Part shown: piece after piece, positions 4,124 to 45,439 of the stretch | Position numbering within the stretch: position 1 is the stretch's first letter | Layout: every line of letters begins with the position of its first letter | Assembly (NCBI RefSeq): GCF_006715785.1 | Contig: NZ_VFNX01000001.1 | Coordinates: 5,498,001-5,562,000 of the forward strand | Length of the DNA stretch: 64,000 bases | Direction of reading: 5' to 3' | Origin: Streptomyces puniciscabiei | GTDB lineage: Bacteria > Actinomycetota > Actinomycetes > Streptomycetales > Streptomycetaceae | Notes under the pieces: generated by a model | Told to the model about the DNA's origin: nothing | Databases searched by the model: none | What the model saw: only the letters and a program-made list of their open reading frames with translations | Translations under genes and position numbers: made by a program

Positions 4124-5029
4124 TTACCGCACCGGAGTGAAGTCCCGGGCGCCGATGAACTCAGGTCGCCGCACGGGCGCCGCGAACGGCTCCACCGCAG
4201 CGTTCTCCACGCTGTTGAACACGATGAAGACGTTGCTGCGCGGGAACGGCGTGATGTTGTCGCCCGAGCCGTGCATGCAGTTGCAGTCGAACCAGGTCGC
4301 CGAGCCGGCCCTGCCGGTGAACAGCCGGATGCCGTGCTCGCCCGCCAGCGCGGTCAGCGCCTCGTCCGAGGGCGTGCCCGCGTCCTGCATCTGCAGCGAC
4401 TTCTTGTAGTTGTCCTTGGGCGTGGCGCCGGCGCAGCCCAGGAACGTCCGGTGCGAACCCGGCATGATCATCAGGCCGCCGTTGGTGTCGAAGTTCTCGG
4501 TCAGCGCGATCGAGACGGACACCGTGCGCATGTTCGGCAGACCGTCCTCGGCGTGCCAGGTCTCGAAGTCCGAGTGCCAGTAGAAGCCGCTCGCGCCGAA
4601 GCCGGGCTTGACGTTGATCCGGGACTGGTGGACGTACACGTCCGAGCCGAGGATCTGCCGGGCGCGCCCGACGACCCGCGGATCGCGCACCAGGTTCGCG
4701 AACACCTCGCTGATCCGGTGCACCTCGAAGACCGAGCGGATCTCCTTGGACTTCGGCTCGACGATGGAGCGCTCGTCGGCGCGGATCGCCGGGTCGGTGA
4801 CCAGCCGGTCCAGCTCGCGCTTGTAGACCTCGACCTCGTCCGGGGTGATCAGCTCGTCGATGGCGAGGAAGCCGTCATGCTCGTACGCCTGCAGGTCGGC
4901 CGTGGTGATCGGGCCCGGGGTGTCCGGGGAGCCCCAGACGACCGGGTCCTGGCGCGGGACGGTCACCTCGGTGGTGCCGCGGGTCGGGTAGAGATCCTTC
5001 ACGGGGGCGGTGTTCGTGGCAGTGGTCAT
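4124..5029 (-). CDS. ectD: Ectoine hydroxylase EctD
   Basis: A 301-aa non-heme Fe(II)/2-oxoglutarate dioxygenase that converts ectoine to 5-hydroxyectoine in the cytoplasm. The iron triad is visible: H152-S-D154 in FYWHSDFETWH and H253 in NCMHGSGDN. The region between (DGLPNMRTVSVSIALTENFDTNGGLMIMPGSH, in part) carries the family signature for ligand binding. Length matches the usual ~300 aa. ATG 5029 lies just 5 bp after the ectC stop. An upstream extension of the frame runs through ectC and is rejected. It is the last gene of ectABCD, so the strain can probably make both compatible solutes. Confidence 0.96.
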   Translation of the reverse strand: MTTATNTAPVKDLYPTRGTTEVTVPRQDPVVWGSPDTPGPITTADLQAYEHDGFLAIDELITPDEVEVYKRELDRLVTDPAIRADERSIVEPKSKEIRSVFEVHRISEVFANLVRDPRVVGRARQILGSDVYVHQSRINVKPGFGASGFYWHSDFETWHAEDGLPNMRTVSVSIALTENFDTNGGLMIMPGSHRTFLGCAGATPKDNYKKSLQMQDAGTPSDEALTALAGEHGIRLFTGRAGSATWFDCNCMHGSGDNITPFPRSNVFIVFNSVENAAVEPFAAPVRRPEFIGARDFTPVR

Positions 5030-40963: not shown

Positions 40964-41023
40964 ACGGCGGGAACGTCCTCAGCCGCCCACCCGTCAATTT
41001 CCTGTACGCCCTGGAGTCTGTCC

Positions 41024-42622
41024 GTGATCTCCGCCTCCGGTATCGAGCTGCGCGCCGGTGCGCGCGTCCTCATCGAGAACGCCACCTTCCGTGTCGCCAA
41101 GGGCGACCGCATCGGCCTCGTCGGCCGCAACGGCGCCGGAAAGACCACCCTCACCAAGTGCCTGGCCGGCGAGGGCATCCCGGCCGCCGGGCAGATCACC
41201 CGCTCCGGCGAGGTCGGCTACCTCCCGCAGGACCCCCGCACCGGCGACCTCGACGTCCTCGCCCGCGACCGCATCCTCTCCGCGCGCGGCCTCGACGTAC
41301 TGATCCGCAAGATGCGCGAGAACGAGCAGCGCATCGCGAACGGCAAGGGCGCCACCCGCGATAAGGCGATGAAGCAGTACGAGCGCCAGGAGACCGAGTT
41401 CCTCACCAAGGGCGGGTACGCCGCCGAGGCCGAGGCCGCCACCATCGCCGCCGCGCTGAACCTGCCCGACCGCGTCCTCGGGCAGCCGCTGCACACCCTC
41501 TCCGGCGGTCAGCGCCGCCGTATCGAGCTGGCCCGCATCCTGTTCTCCGACGCGGACACCCTCCTGCTCGACGAGCCGACCAACCACCTCGACGCGGACT
41601 CGATCATCTGGCTGCGGGACTACCTGAAGACCTACCGCGGCGGATTCATCGTCATCAGCCACGACGTCGACCTCGTCGACACCGTGGTCAACAAGGTGTT
41701 CTACCTGGACGCCAACCGGTCCGCGATCGACATCTACAACATGGGCTGGAAGCTCTACCAGCAGCAGCGCGAGGCCGACGAGAAGCGCCGCAAGCGGGAG
41801 CGGGCCAACGCCGAGAAGAAGGCCGCCGCCCTCAACGCCCAGGCCGACAAGATGCGCGCCAAGGCCACCAAGACGGTCGCCGCGCAGAACATGGCCCGCC
41901 GCGCCGAGAAGCTGCTCTCCGGCCTCGAAGCGGTCCGGATGTCCGACAAGGTCGCCAAGCTGCGCTTCCCGGAGCCCGCGCCCTGCGGCAAGACCCCGCT
42001 GATGGCCGAGGGCCTGTCGAAGTCGTACGGCTCGCTGGAGATCTTCACCGACGTCGACCTCGCCATCGACAAGGGCTCCAGGGTCGTCATCCTCGGGCTC
42101 AACGGCGCGGGCAAGACCACGCTGCTGCGCCTGCTCGCCGGCGTCGAGCAGCCGGACACGGGCCAGGTCGTCCCCGGCCACGGCCTCAAGCTCGGCTACT
42201 ACGCCCAGGAGCACGAGACCCTGGACGCCGACCGCACGGTCCTGGAGAACATGCGCTCGGCCGCCCCCGACATGGACCTGGTCGAGGTCCGCAAGGTGCT
42301 GGGCTCGTTCCTGTTCTCCGGCGACGACGTCGACAAGCCGGCGGGTGTCCTGTCCGGCGGTGAGAAGACCCGGCTCGCCCTGGCGACCCTGGTCGTCTCC
42401 TCGGCCAACGTGCTCCTGCTCGACGAGCCGACCAACAACCTCGACCCCGCCAGCCGCGAGGAGATCCTCGGCGCCCTGCGCACCTACAAGGGCGCGGTCG
42501 TCCTCGTCACGCACGACGAGGGCGCCGTCGAGGCGCTCCAGCCGGAGCGGATCATCCTGCTGCCGGACGGCGTCGAGGACCTGTGGGGCTCCGACTACGC
42601 GGATCTCGTCGCCCTGGCGTGA
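41024..42622 (+). CDS. ABC-F family ATPase
   Basis: A 532-aa soluble protein with two ABC cassettes and no membrane part. Cassette 1 has GLVGRNGAGKTTLTK, LSGGQRRRIELARIL and LLLDEPTNHLDADS. Cassette 2 has ILGLNGAGKTTLLRL, LSGGEKTRLALATL and LLLDEPTNNLDPAS. The linker between them (about residues 240-310) is highly charged (EADEKRRKRERANAEKKAAA), the part that reaches into the ribosome. ABC-F proteins relieve stalled or antibiotic-bound ribosomes. The GTG start at 41024 has GGAG upstream. Confidence 0.94.
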   Translation: MISASGIELRAGARVLIENATFRVAKGDRIGLVGRNGAGKTTLTKCLAGEGIPAAGQITRSGEVGYLPQDPRTGDLDVLARDRILSARGLDVLIRKMRENEQRIANGKGATRDKAMKQYERQETEFLTKGGYAAEAEAATIAAALNLPDRVLGQPLHTLSGGQRRRIELARILFSDADTLLLDEPTNHLDADSIIWLRDYLKTYRGGFIVISHDVDLVDTVVNKVFYLDANRSAIDIYNMGWKLYQQQREADEKRRKRERANAEKKAAALNAQADKMRAKATKTVAAQNMARRAEKLLSGLEAVRMSDKVAKLRFPEPAPCGKTPLMAEGLSKSYGSLEIFTDVDLAIDKGSRVVILGLNGAGKTTLLRLLAGVEQPDTGQVVPGHGLKLGYYAQEHETLDADRTVLENMRSAAPDMDLVEVRKVLGSFLFSGDDVDKPAGVLSGGEKTRLALATLVVSSANVLLLDEPTNNLDPASREEILGALRTYKGAVVLVTHDEGAVEALQPERIILLPDGVEDLWGSDYADLVALA

Positions 42623-42945
42623 TCCACTGCGTATGGATCATTCGGCTCATCGGTGATCCATCATCTGTGTGAGATCTCCTCGTATCGAGGTGTGTCGTAC
42701 ACGGATTTCGTGGCCGATCCCTTTATTGCCAAGGGATCGGCCACCTCGCGTCTCTGACCTGGTACTTCGCGAATCCACCCGTTCGGCCCCGTGGGCGGGA
42801 TCCCTTGGAACCTCGTCTTCCGCTTGTGCGGATCCACTCCTGTCGTCACAACGATGTCTCACGGACCTTGCCGAATGGGTGGCCATCACGCCCAGGAGGG
42901 GTGATCATGAGGAGACCAGAGCGCACTTCCCATGAGGAGGCACGG
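42623..42945. promoter_or_regulatory. GATC-rich intergenic region before gbn
   Basis: A 323-bp non-coding stretch with nine GATC tetramers (at 42636, 42655, 42673, 42716, 42735, 42799, 42831, 42903, and 42621 straddling the ABC-F stop); a tenth at 42602 is in the end of the ABC-F gene. By base composition less than one would be expected. It must contain the gbn promoter. No other gene or RNA is seen. Confidence 0.7.
42712..42742. repeat. Perfect 12-bp inverted repeat with a GATC in each arm
   Basis: GGCCGATCCCTT (42712-42723) and its complement AAGGGATCGGCC (42731-42742) are separated by 7 nt. It could terminate the ABC-F transcript, about 90 nt downstream of its stop, but there is no T run. 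Each arm contains a GATC, so it may be a binding site for Gbn. Confidence 0.65.
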
Positions 42946-43167
42946 GTGGCCGAGACTCTGAAGAAGGGCAGCCGGGTGACCGGCGCCGCGCGCGACAAGC
43001 TCGCGGCAGACCTGAAGAAGAAGTACGACTCCGGTGCGAGCATCCGGGCGCTGGCCGAGGAGACCGGCCGCTCGTATGGCTTCGTACACCGGATGCTCAG
43101 TGAGTCGGGCGTCACGCTTCGTGGGCGTGGCGGAGCGACCCGGGGCAAGAAGGCCGCATCGTCCTGA
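42946..43167 (+). CDS. gbn: GATC-binding nucleoid-associated protein Gbn (SCO1839-like)
   Basis: A 73-aa basic protein with a single helix-turn-helix (ALAEETGRSYGFVHRMLSESG, in part), a charged N-terminus (AETLKKGSRVTGAARDKLAADLKKKYDSG region) and a basic tail RGRGGATRGKKAASS. I recognise it as the small Streptomyces nucleoid-associated protein named Gbn for binding GATC motifs (SCO1839 in S. coelicolor, also 73 aa as I remember). GTG 42946 is chosen because GAGGAGG lies 6-7 nt upstream and the sequence then matches. Longer frames have no RBS. The upstream region is full of GATC, suggesting autoregulation. Confidence 0.88.
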   Translation: MAETLKKGSRVTGAARDKLAADLKKKYDSGASIRALAEETGRSYGFVHRMLSESGVTLRGRGGATRGKKAASS

Positions 43168-43197
43168 CTCCGGGCGGCCATCGGCTTCGATGGGTGG

Positions 43198-43229
43198 CCA
43201 CCCGGTCGGCGGTCTGACCGGCCGGGTGG
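43198..43229 (+). terminator. Hairpin downstream of gbn
   Basis: CCACCCGG (43198-43205) pairs with CCGGGTGG (43222-43229), with additional inner pairing CGGT/ACCG, followed by TTACT. It lies about 30 nt after the gbn stop and probably terminates its transcript. Confidence 0.65.
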
Positions 43230-43296
43230 TTACTGTGCAGTCACTTAGCATGCCGTAACGGCACTGCGTGATGACCGCACCCATCGGAGGCGCCCC

Positions 43297-44100
43297 ATGG
43301 CTACGCCCGAACAGGACCTCGCTCCTGTACTCGACAAGGACGGCGTACGGCTCACCGTCGACGACGCGCTCGCCACGGTGACGCTGACCAACCCGGCCAA
43401 GCGCAACGCGCAGAGCCCCGCCCTGTGGCGGGCGCTCACCGAGGCCGGCCGGCTGCTGCCGGGCTCCGTCCGTGTCGTCGTGCTGCGCGGCGAGGGCAGG
43501 TCCTTCTCCGCCGGTCTCGACCGGCAGATGTTCACGCCGGAGGGGATCCCGGGCGAGCCGAACTTCATCGAACTCGCGCGCCGTGACGACGCCGGGCTCG
43601 ACGCGACCATCGCCGAGTTCCAGGAGGCGTTCACCTGGTGGCGGCGCAGTGACATCGTGTCCATCGCCGCCGTCCAGGGGCATGCCATCGGGGCCGGCTT
43701 CCAGCTCGCGCTCGCGTGCGATCTGCGGGTGGTCGCGGACGACGTGCAGTTCGCCATGCGCGAGACCAGCCTGGGCCTCGTCCCCGACCTGACCGGCACA
43801 CACCCGCTGGTCGGTCTCGTGGGCTACGCCCGCGCGCTCGAGATCTGCGCGACCGGACGGTTCGTCGGCGCGGCGGAGTCGGTGGCGTCCGGGCTGGCCA
43901 ACGTCAGCGTGCCGGAGGCGGAACTCGACGCGGCCGTACGGGACTTGGCCGCGGCGCTGCTGGCTGCGCCCCGGGACGCGGTCGTGGAGACCAAGGCGTT
44001 GCTGCGGGGTGCGGTGGATCGGACGTACGACGAGCAGCGGGCGGCCGAGCGGGCTGCCCAGGCACGCCGGCTCCGGGACCTGGCAGGCCTCGGCGAGTGA
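43297..44100 (+). CDS. Enoyl-CoA hydratase/isomerase family protein
   Basis: A 267-aa crotonase-fold enzyme. The oxyanion-hole segments are VVVLRGEGRSFSAGLDRQMF and AAVQGHAIGAGFQLALACDLRVVADDVQFAM (in parts). The active-site region ETSLGLVPDLTGTHPL has aspartate where the second catalytic Glu often is, so isomerase or hydrolase activity is possible. It probably acts in acyl-CoA breakdown. Starts at ATG 43297 with GGAGG 8 nt upstream. Confidence 0.9.
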   Translation: MATPEQDLAPVLDKDGVRLTVDDALATVTLTNPAKRNAQSPALWRALTEAGRLLPGSVRVVVLRGEGRSFSAGLDRQMFTPEGIPGEPNFIELARRDDAGLDATIAEFQEAFTWWRRSDIVSIAAVQGHAIGAGFQLALACDLRVVADDVQFAMRETSLGLVPDLTGTHPLVGLVGYARALEICATGRFVGAAESVASGLANVSVPEAELDAAVRDLAAALLAAPRDAVVETKALLRGAVDRTYDEQRAAERAAQARRLRDLAGLGE

Positions 44101-44137
44101 ACGCGGCGGCGGAGCCGCACCTTGCTCCACCGCGCCC

Positions 44138-44872
44138 CTAGAGGGACGCGTCACCGACGGCCGTGATCAACACCGCCACCGTCGGCCGGTCCTCCAGCGC
44201 GGCCCGCACCGCCGTACGCACCCGCCGGGCCACCTCGACCGCCCGGTGGTCCGCGCCGGTCGTCAGCTCCACGCGCACGTGCCGGTGCGGCAGGGCGGCG
44301 CCGGCCGTGCGCTCCTCCAGGTGCGCCGCCCGGCCGAGGCCGCCGAGGGACCCCGTCAACCCGGTCACTCCGGGGACGGACAGCGCGGCCGCGGCCACCC
44401 GGGACTCGTCGGGACCGGTGGGCTCGCGCGCGGGCACCGGCCGCGGCGCCCGCACCCGCGCGCCCGGCTCCGTCGCGTCCAGCAGGCCGGTGACCCGCAG
44501 GTCCGCCTCCGCCACCGCGAGTCCGAGCCGCTCCGTCGCGGCCGTCACCAGGGTCAGCCGCAGCCGGGACGCCACCGTCGGCAGCGGCTCGGCGGCCGTC
44601 GCGGCGAAGTCCGCCGTCAGCCGCAGCGGCCCTGGCGGCAGCGCGCTCGGTGGAGCCGGTACGACGGGCTCGGGCGCCTCGTCCGGATCGGCGAGTGCGA
44701 GCCGCAGCGCGCCGAGCCGCACCTCGGGCATCGCGTCCGCCACCGCGCGTTCGAGTACAGCAGTGGCCGCGCTCTCCGCGATCCAGGCGCCGTCGCGTGG
44801 TCCGCCGAGCGGCAGCAGCCTGCCCAGCCCCACCTGGCGCCGCACTACCTCGGTCCACCTGTCCGCCGTCAT
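44138..44872 (-). CDS. Hypothetical Asp23-associated protein ('P10-like')
   Basis: A 244-aa cytosolic protein rich in Ala, Arg and Pro. Streptomyces annotation pipelines often label such proteins 'nucleopolyhedrovirus P10 family', which is not informative. The C-terminal half VRVELTTGADHRAVEVARRVRTAVRAALEDR (in part) and VAVLITAVGDASL follows the helix-strand pattern of Asp23 domains. The central LPTVASRLRLTLVTAATERLGLAVAEADLRV looks like a second copy. It is divergent from the Asp23 operon 93 bp away. Role unknown. Confidence 0.65.
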   Translation of the reverse strand: MTADRWTEVVRRQVGLGRLLPLGGPRDGAWIAESAATAVLERAVADAMPEVRLGALRLALADPDEAPEPVVPAPPSALPPGPLRLTADFAATAAEPLPTVASRLRLTLVTAATERLGLAVAEADLRVTGLLDATEPGARVRAPRPVPAREPTGPDESRVAAAALSVPGVTGLTGSLGGLGRAAHLEERTAGAALPHRHVRVELTTGADHRAVEVARRVRTAVRAALEDRPTVAVLITAVGDASL

Positions 44873-44965
44873 TCCTCCAGCCTGCCGTATCGGCGGCGCG
44901 CGACCGGGGAACCATGCTTACGGTGGACGCAGGACGATCGAAGCCACCGAAAGGGACGTACGGCG

Positions 44966-45439
44966 ATGACCGACATGACGACGACCCCCGAGGGCGACCA
45001 GGAGCCACAGGTTTCGACCCACAGGACGACCCGGCGCGGCGGCGGCGATCCGGCCACCCGCGGACGGACGACCATCGCCGACGGTGTCGTGGTGAAGATC
45101 GCCGGTCTCGCGGCTCGGGACGTGGTCGGCGTGCACGCCCTGGGCGGCGGCCTGGCCCGCACCTTCGGCGCCGTGCGCGACCGGGTGCCCGGCGGCTCCA
45201 AGTCCATCACCCGAGGGGTTAAAGCCGAGGTCGGCGAGGTGCAGACCGCGCTCGACCTGGAGATCGTCGTGGACTACGGCGTCTCGATCACCGATGTCGC
45301 CCGTGCGGTGCGGGAGAACGTGATCGCCGCCGTGGAACGCATGACCGGACTCGAGGTGGTCGAGGTCAACATCGCCGTCGGCGACGTCAAGTTGCCCGAG
45401 GAGGAGGAAGAGGAGCCCGAGCCGCCCCGGATCCAGTGA
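44966..45439 (+). CDS. Asp23/Gls24 family envelope stress protein (first copy)
   Basis: A 157-aa protein. Residues about 35-140 form the alkaline-shock domain: RTTIADGVVVKIAGLAARDVVGVHALGGG, TRGVKAEVGEVQTALDLEIVVDYGVSI and ARAVRENVIAAVERMTGLEVVEVNIAVGDVKL are all diagnostic. A basic unstructured N-terminus and an acidic tail (EEEEEEPEPP) flank it. In Firmicutes Asp23 coats the inner membrane face through the anchor AmaP, and an AmaP-like gene closes this operon. ATG 44966 has AAAGGGA upstream. Confidence 0.92.
   Translation: MTDMTTTPEGDQEPQVSTHRTTRRGGGDPATRGRTTIADGVVVKIAGLAARDVVGVHALGGGLARTFGAVRDRVPGGSKSITRGVKAEVGEVQTALDLEIVVDYGVSITDVARAVRENVIAAVERMTGLEVVEVNIAVGDVKLPEEEEEEPEPPRIQ

Follow-up and report, generated by a model that had tools for sequence, protein, structure and literature searches.

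Several chromosome-associated proteins offer a frame for interpreting the region upstream of gbn. Fis of Escherichia coli, a protein that coats the chromosome and represses its own gene, has several sites in its own promoter, one or more of which overlap the core promoter. Clusters of GATC recognized by a chromosome-bound protein are familiar from the SeqA/Dam system of enterobacteria. The gbn region analyzed here, within a 64,000-nucleotide stretch of the Streptomyces puniciscabiei genome (the window), recalls both: like SeqA/Dam it combines clustered GATC with a chromosome-bound protein, and like Fis, Gbn as proposed below would use sites in its own promoter for feedback on its own level. 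Unlike Fis, however, Gbn is a small protein with a single helix-turn-helix, is specific for GATCWT and hardly deforms DNA, and the hexamer that it recognizes would itself be the -10 element of its promoter. Methylation logic of the SeqA/Dam kind is not expected at gbn, because S. coelicolor has no Dam methylation and methylated GATC is bound less well by Gbn (PMC9239103).

The closest described system is the promoter of gbn (SCO1839) in S. coelicolor, where Du et al. (2022; PMC9239103) defined the Gbn site as GATCWT. Their ChIP enrichment at gbn's own promoter (67.75/58.18-fold) was the highest in Table 1 of that study, with the summit at -326/-324, and an EMSA was performed on a gbn-promoter fragment carrying eight GATCs (-561 to -239). 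In a tethered-particle assay on the same promoter, Gbn hardly altered the conformation of DNA, and the nucleation centre suggested in an earlier note on this DNA is not supported. Regions covered by Gbn number more than 2,800, and low-GC DNA accounts for half of the strong ones. Of the genes that Gbn binds strongly at the promoter, 9.5% changed in the mutant compared to 6.9% overall, so that Gbn binding often leaves transcription unchanged, while promoter binding is accompanied by slightly lower expression overall. The gbn row of Table 1 carries no fold change, gbn expression goes up during development, and a promoter swap in the same study replaced -157 to +4. Terms for autoregulation of gbn are absent from the main text of PMC9239103 and from the passages of PMC11272600. 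The link between Gbn and its own upstream region, which the earlier note considered not described in detail, is thus largely published as far as binding is concerned (PMC9239103), and that view still holds for conservation and mechanism. To the binding reported in S. coelicolor we add a conserved array, a proximal GATCAT as putative -10, a class-wide comparison and a feedback model. The two promoters belong to the same gene and were compared at the same place from the start codon, the counterpart being matched by that position, gene length, start, helix-turn-helix and neighborhood: the bases corresponding to -561 to -239 (42385-42707) hold seven GATCs here and eight in S. coelicolor, and -326/-324, counted from the GTG, falls on 42620-42622, at the start of the array described below.

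The gene for a 73-aa protein adjoining the cluster is present as claimed, an open reading frame running from the GTG at 42946 to a stop codon at 43165-43167. HTH_58 spans residues 5-66 of its product, which is small, with a single helix-turn-helix, as in the Gbn family of actinobacterial nucleoid proteins (about 73 aa, basic). We take this protein to be the counterpart of Gbn/SCO1839 from its length, start, helix-turn-helix and neighborhood. A Gbn match was present in 199 of 199 genomes of the genus, 150 of 150 in the family and 188 of 296 in the class. The protein encoded at 42946-43164 also has a hit to the NCBIfam model for Cbp1, which binds CRISPR repeats (1.5e-8; 34.6 of 140 bits, far below cut-off), and a distant helix-turn-helix kinship of Gbn with Cbp1 is possible. 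Two paralogues of gbn occur in the same genome (L267, G000 C1:4452591; L268, G000 C2:110947), and the latter, the third gbn copy, has GATCs at -33 and -7.

Features of the gbn region, in positions of the window
Feature	Position	Strand	Basis
Upstream gene for an ABC-F-type ATPase	41024..42622	+	ORF; Pfam ABC_tran 5e-54, two stretches
Variable GATC within the ABC-F gene	42602..42605		Column kept in 41/91 rows
Distal conserved array, four GATCs (42621, 42636 as GATCAT, 42655, 42673)	42621..42676		ABC-F stop to hairpin
Terminator-like hairpin with a 14-bp stem and a 7-nt loop, lacking a T run	42710..42744	+	Fold z -3.44
GATCs 42799 and 42831, particular to this lineage	42799..42834		Kept in 1/91 and 9/91 rows
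Imperfect palindrome GGAA-N7-TTCC, candidate AtrA site	42807..42821		GGAA in 85/91, TTCC in 88/91 rows
-35-like hexamer TGGCCA	42880..42885	+	T(G/A)GC at this offset in 178/179 family loci and 13/18 families with a site
17-bp spacer, sequence differs between families	42886..42902	+	Aligned rows, length check
Proposed -10 hexamer and proximal operator GATCAT, a Gbn consensus site	42903..42908	+	179/179 family loci
Predicted transcription start, +/-2 bases	42915..42915	+	Inference from the -10 alone
Ribosome-binding site GAGGAGG	42934..42940	+	GAGG at 42934 and 42937 in 91/91 rows
gbn, 73 aa, single helix-turn-helix, GTG start	42946..43167	+	ORF; Pfam HTH_58 PF19575, 2.2e-33

All ten GATC positions listed in the earlier note (42602, 42621, 42636, 42655, 42673, 42716, 42735, 42799, 42831 and 42903) are exact. 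Eight are strictly intergenic, 42602 lying within the ABC-F gene and 42621 overlapping its TGA (42620-42622), and just two of the ten, 42636 and 42903, match the published consensus GATCWT in full. Within the 64-kb window, GATC density per 305 bp peaks at 42602..42906, and across the window GATC is over-represented (362 compared to 235.6 in shuffles). Its composition had been misjudged: the GC content is 59% rather than about 72%, and the genome mean is 1.69 GATC per 305 bp rather than fewer than one, as estimated from 20 sampled 20-kb stretches of the same genome (400 kb, 2,500 bases of them N). In that sample, at least ten GATC per 305 bp were found at 283 of 393,920 positions, in two places and in 2 of the 20 stretches, and 305-bp segments with 55-63% GC (n = 12,259) held at most eight, a maximum reached once. 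GATC density by itself is moderately surprising. As proof of a special cluster it is ruled out by the two other places, which hold 10 and 15 GATC per 305 bp (L251, L263). Dense clusters were seen at L263 1086-1390, at L251 5345-5649 and at 4438-4850 of the window; that of L251 sits in a 355-aa ORF on the minus strand, presumably Ku-like. When GATC counts near gbn were set against counts elsewhere, a comparison that the earlier note had proposed and that did not refute its claim, the 400 bp upstream of gbn held 3.89 and the sequence further up 2.04, with the excess seen in 17 of 24 families (238 loci). GATC was also the most frequent of the four-letter words tested upstream of gbn. Because several other four-letter words of the same bases are higher near gbn as well (16 to 18 of 24 families), the upstream count alone is weak and no proof of selection, and it is position that matters.

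Each site was followed by position across 91 aligned upstream regions of Streptomyces, all distinct, drawn from 111 loci after setting aside 16 on the opposite strand and 4 duplicates. These rows lean towards near relatives, most having been taken from the 80 closest Gbn matches; more distant loci enter through wider comparisons (246 loci recovered by tblastn, of which 239 distinct ones were used for element counts). The ten sites counted in the earlier note fall apart in this alignment. Five are conserved, namely 42903, kept in all 91 rows, and the four GATCs of the array (42621 in 73, 42636 in 90, 42655 in 89 and 42673 in 64 rows). The two in the arms of the hairpin vary (42716 kept in 24 rows and 42735 in 14), and the pair between the hairpin and the putative promoter is nearly private to this lineage. 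The array also recurs with its spacing: GATCWT-N13-GATC was found in 147 of 159 loci of the genus and in none of 1,422 control windows, and the interval from -365 to -260 holds 4.40 GATC in the same 159 loci compared to 0.48 in 2,527 control windows. The pair is present in 5 of 20 loci from other genera of the family, and on this comparison the distal array is a genus feature of Streptomyces. By the depth of its conservation, the greatest among the ten, 42903 is the old site, and it had not been singled out in the earlier note.

Within the family of the window, the proximal GATCAT lies 40-44 bases 5' of the start codon (179 loci: 127 at -43, 44 at -42, five at -41, two at -44 and one at -40). 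An ATG at 42907, inside GTGATCATG, follows a good ribosome site and is in frame here; that Gbn would generally begin there and be longer was rejected, since the distance from GATC to GTG varies over this range of -40 to -44 and so breaks the frame. Outside the family, 60 distinct loci from 23 families were compared, hand-chosen to spread across families. A forward GATCWT within -110 to -15 was found in every one of the 179 family loci, in 44 of these 60 loci (17 of the 23 other families) and in 26 of 641 control windows (28 with the other window edge). Reversed GATCWT in the same region occurred in 19 of the 60 compared to 20 of 641 controls, and the preponderance of forward sites fits a directional -10. 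When T(G/A)GC is required ahead of the site, as T(G/A)GC-N19-GATCWT, matches come from 178 of the 179 loci within the family, 25 of the 60 beyond it and none of 472 control windows. An offset of exactly 23 bases between T(G/A)GC and the GATC that follows is seen in 13 of the 18 families with a site, whereas any other offset from 8 to 44 occurs in at most two; with one locus taken per family, a mean of 10.7 of 18 carry the spaced pair, compared to 0.19 (maximum 3) in 20,000 shuffles. The spacer thus measures 17 bp in 13 of 18 families while its sequence differs between them, and a constant length with a drifting sequence suggests promoter geometry. A spacing of 17 bp is canonical for sigma70 promoters. 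Each hexamer of TGGCCA-N17-GATCAT matches four of six consensus positions, and the putative -10 retains the key A (position 2) and the key T (position 6).

The region upstream of gbn is a real, conserved control region that has already been partly described. What is new suggests that the GATC closest to gbn is the ancient one among the ten and that it falls in the likely promoter. The best reading of this comparative evidence is an ancestral feedback operator in the -10, together with an upstream array in Streptomyces. We consider it on balance probable that gbn has an autoregulatory control region, composed of a proximal operator in the -10 and the distal array, in which negative feedback would operate by occlusion. 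The proximal module would be a sigma70-like promoter, TGGCCA-N17-GATCAT, 66 to 38 bases 5' of the start codon, with a -10 hexamer that also matches the Gbn consensus. Accumulated Gbn would cover the -10 and exclude RNA polymerase, and in this way Gbn probably turns down its own production. The distal module, four or five GATCs including one GATCAT, 230-280 bp upstream of the proximal module, would be the main loading place in vivo, most likely acting as a local reservoir that would set the Gbn level needed before the promoter is covered. While sequence, conservation and spacing are read directly from the loci compared, and others established in S. coelicolor that Gbn binds, with the summit of enrichment at the array, we infer that TGGCCA and GATCAT act as a promoter with a start at about 42915 and that Gbn occupies 42903 in the cell, where it would repress. 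The earlier proposal of an autoregulatory loading site is partly supported: a control region that Gbn binds is upheld (ChIP-seq and EMSA in S. coelicolor, PMC9239103), but ten equivalent sites are not supported. More tentatively, we suggest that in no fewer than 13 of the 24 sampled families of the class a Gbn site serves at the same time as the -10 box of the gbn promoter (TRGCnn-N17-GATCWT), an element also found before a paralogue, so that the level of Gbn would be set by direct competition with RNA polymerase in an arrangement older than the families, the Streptomyces array being a later sink that tunes the set point.

Several observations favor the feedback model. The paralogue L267, 77% identical to Gbn over residues 11-67, is preceded by TAGCCG-N17-GATCAT with its GATC at -43. 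Families f7 and f33 lack the pair and have a canonical-looking -10 in that region (TAGAAT, TACCGT or TAGCAT, identified by eye), with a GATC nearby in three of four loci. The highest enrichment in the published Table 1 is at gbn, and Gbn at promoters accompanies slightly lower expression (PMC9239103). Against the model, TGGCCA-N17-GATCAT scores 8 of 12 in a promoter scan with a limit of 9, one short, and the scan lists no promoter there. The published summit lies at the array rather than at -43 (PMC9239103). No forward GATCWT was found near gbn in 16 of the 60 loci (6 of the 23 other families), T(G/A)GC at 17 bp is absent from 5 of the 18 families with a site (f13, f14, f16, f18 and f33), and the full element is absent from 11 of 24 families. 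The enrichment of reversed GATCWT also counts against it. Genome-wide, GATCWT showed no enrichment 18-19 bases after TTGAC relative to 23-24 bases in 21 genomes, and its use as a common -10 partner of TTGAC is not supported. The element is not unique either, as this genome has 47 matches to the pattern, and its form with GATCAT has 15 to 32 matches in each of 20 further genomes among the matches listed. Finally, feedback alone does not account for the developmental rise of gbn expression (PMC9239103). The published own-promoter peak lies about 280 bp from 42903, the most deeply conserved site, and the EMSA fragment, which ends at -239, excludes -43 and with it this site (PMC9239103). As the comparison singles out one six-base site and one array, feedback control of gbn becomes directly testable.

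Gbn might also bind its own region without regulatory purpose, a low-GC intergenic stretch rich in sites being coated like thousands of others. This fits the more than 2,800 Gbn regions and the share of strong ones, one half, in low-GC DNA, as well as the few bound genes that change in the mutant (PMC9239103), and other spots in the genome are equally dense in GATC. Passive richness does not, however, explain why position, spacing and orientation of the proximal site are kept across families and the array across a genus, and we regard purposeless coating as unlikely.

A second alternative hypothesis is that a particular sigma factor reads the proximal element as a promoter with an atypical -10, that its likeness to a Gbn site is secondary and that any autoregulation runs via the array alone. 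In line with this, the ChIP summit is at the array (PMC9239103), the T(G/A)GC half lies outside the Gbn motif, and the conserved leader downstream has constraints of its own. In families f7 and f33, however, where the apparent -10 is canonical, a GATC still stands at it or within 4 bases of it in three of four loci (by eye), and the enrichment of reversed GATCWT points to Gbn binding. A sigma factor-specific promoter of this kind seems rather unlikely.

The array could instead be part of the ABC-F gene's 3' end, with a role in transcript ending, termination or read-through control, and have no part in the regulation of gbn. It begins at the ABC-F stop codon, precedes the terminator-like hairpin and lies 230-280 bp from the proposed gbn promoter, and the weak effect of Gbn on DNA conformation speaks against looping to that promoter (PMC9239103). 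The perfect inverted repeat with two GATCs in its arms that had been described as 12 bp is real, with a stem of 14 bp, and the best stem at this place has a median of 13 pairs (range 6-19) in loci of the genus compared to 7 (5-11) in coding controls. A scan for terminator-like sites with a T run found none at the hairpin. Since the structure is mostly kept while the sequence changes, the hairpin probably terminates transcription without a T run, and the two GATCs in it would be passengers. It is ruled out as a Gbn element, the stem being mostly kept and the arm GATCs not. Yet the protein that binds the array is encoded next door, and a GATCWT is retained there in 14 of the 20 loci from other genera of the family, making an ABC-F function of the array improbable. 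That chance, together with codon and GC composition, explains the whole cluster is very improbable, for although dinucleotide shuffles of the 305-bp stretch (mean 4.58 GATC) reach at least ten in 12 of 5,000 cases and those of the intergenic part alone reach at least eight in 183 of 5,000, the columns of five sites keep GATC in between 64 and 91 of the 91 rows, which refutes chance for these five, and only 42602, 42716, 42735, 42799 and 42831 are likely to have arisen that way.

Other conserved features surround the putative feedback operator. Positions 42864-42945 are nearly invariant in the genus, the presumed untranslated leader included, and this constancy, which exceeds what a promoter and a ribosome site need, may point to translational control. 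A search of 41000-45000 for known RNA families gave a single match, with an E value of 0.83, far under the gathering score and outside the region. A conserved block around CTGACCTGG (42754-42764), with four-letter words kept in 85 to 91 of 91 rows, lies between the hairpin and the gbn promoter. An AtrA site was predicted in the gbn promoter by Du et al. (PMC9239103); the palindrome at 42807-42821 is a candidate for this site. In some species (L093, L054) the array is lengthened by further GATCs, about 310 to 400 bp before gbn and with a usual spacing of 12 bp (such as -396, -384, -372, -360 and -348), as if a short tandem repeat had enlarged the array.
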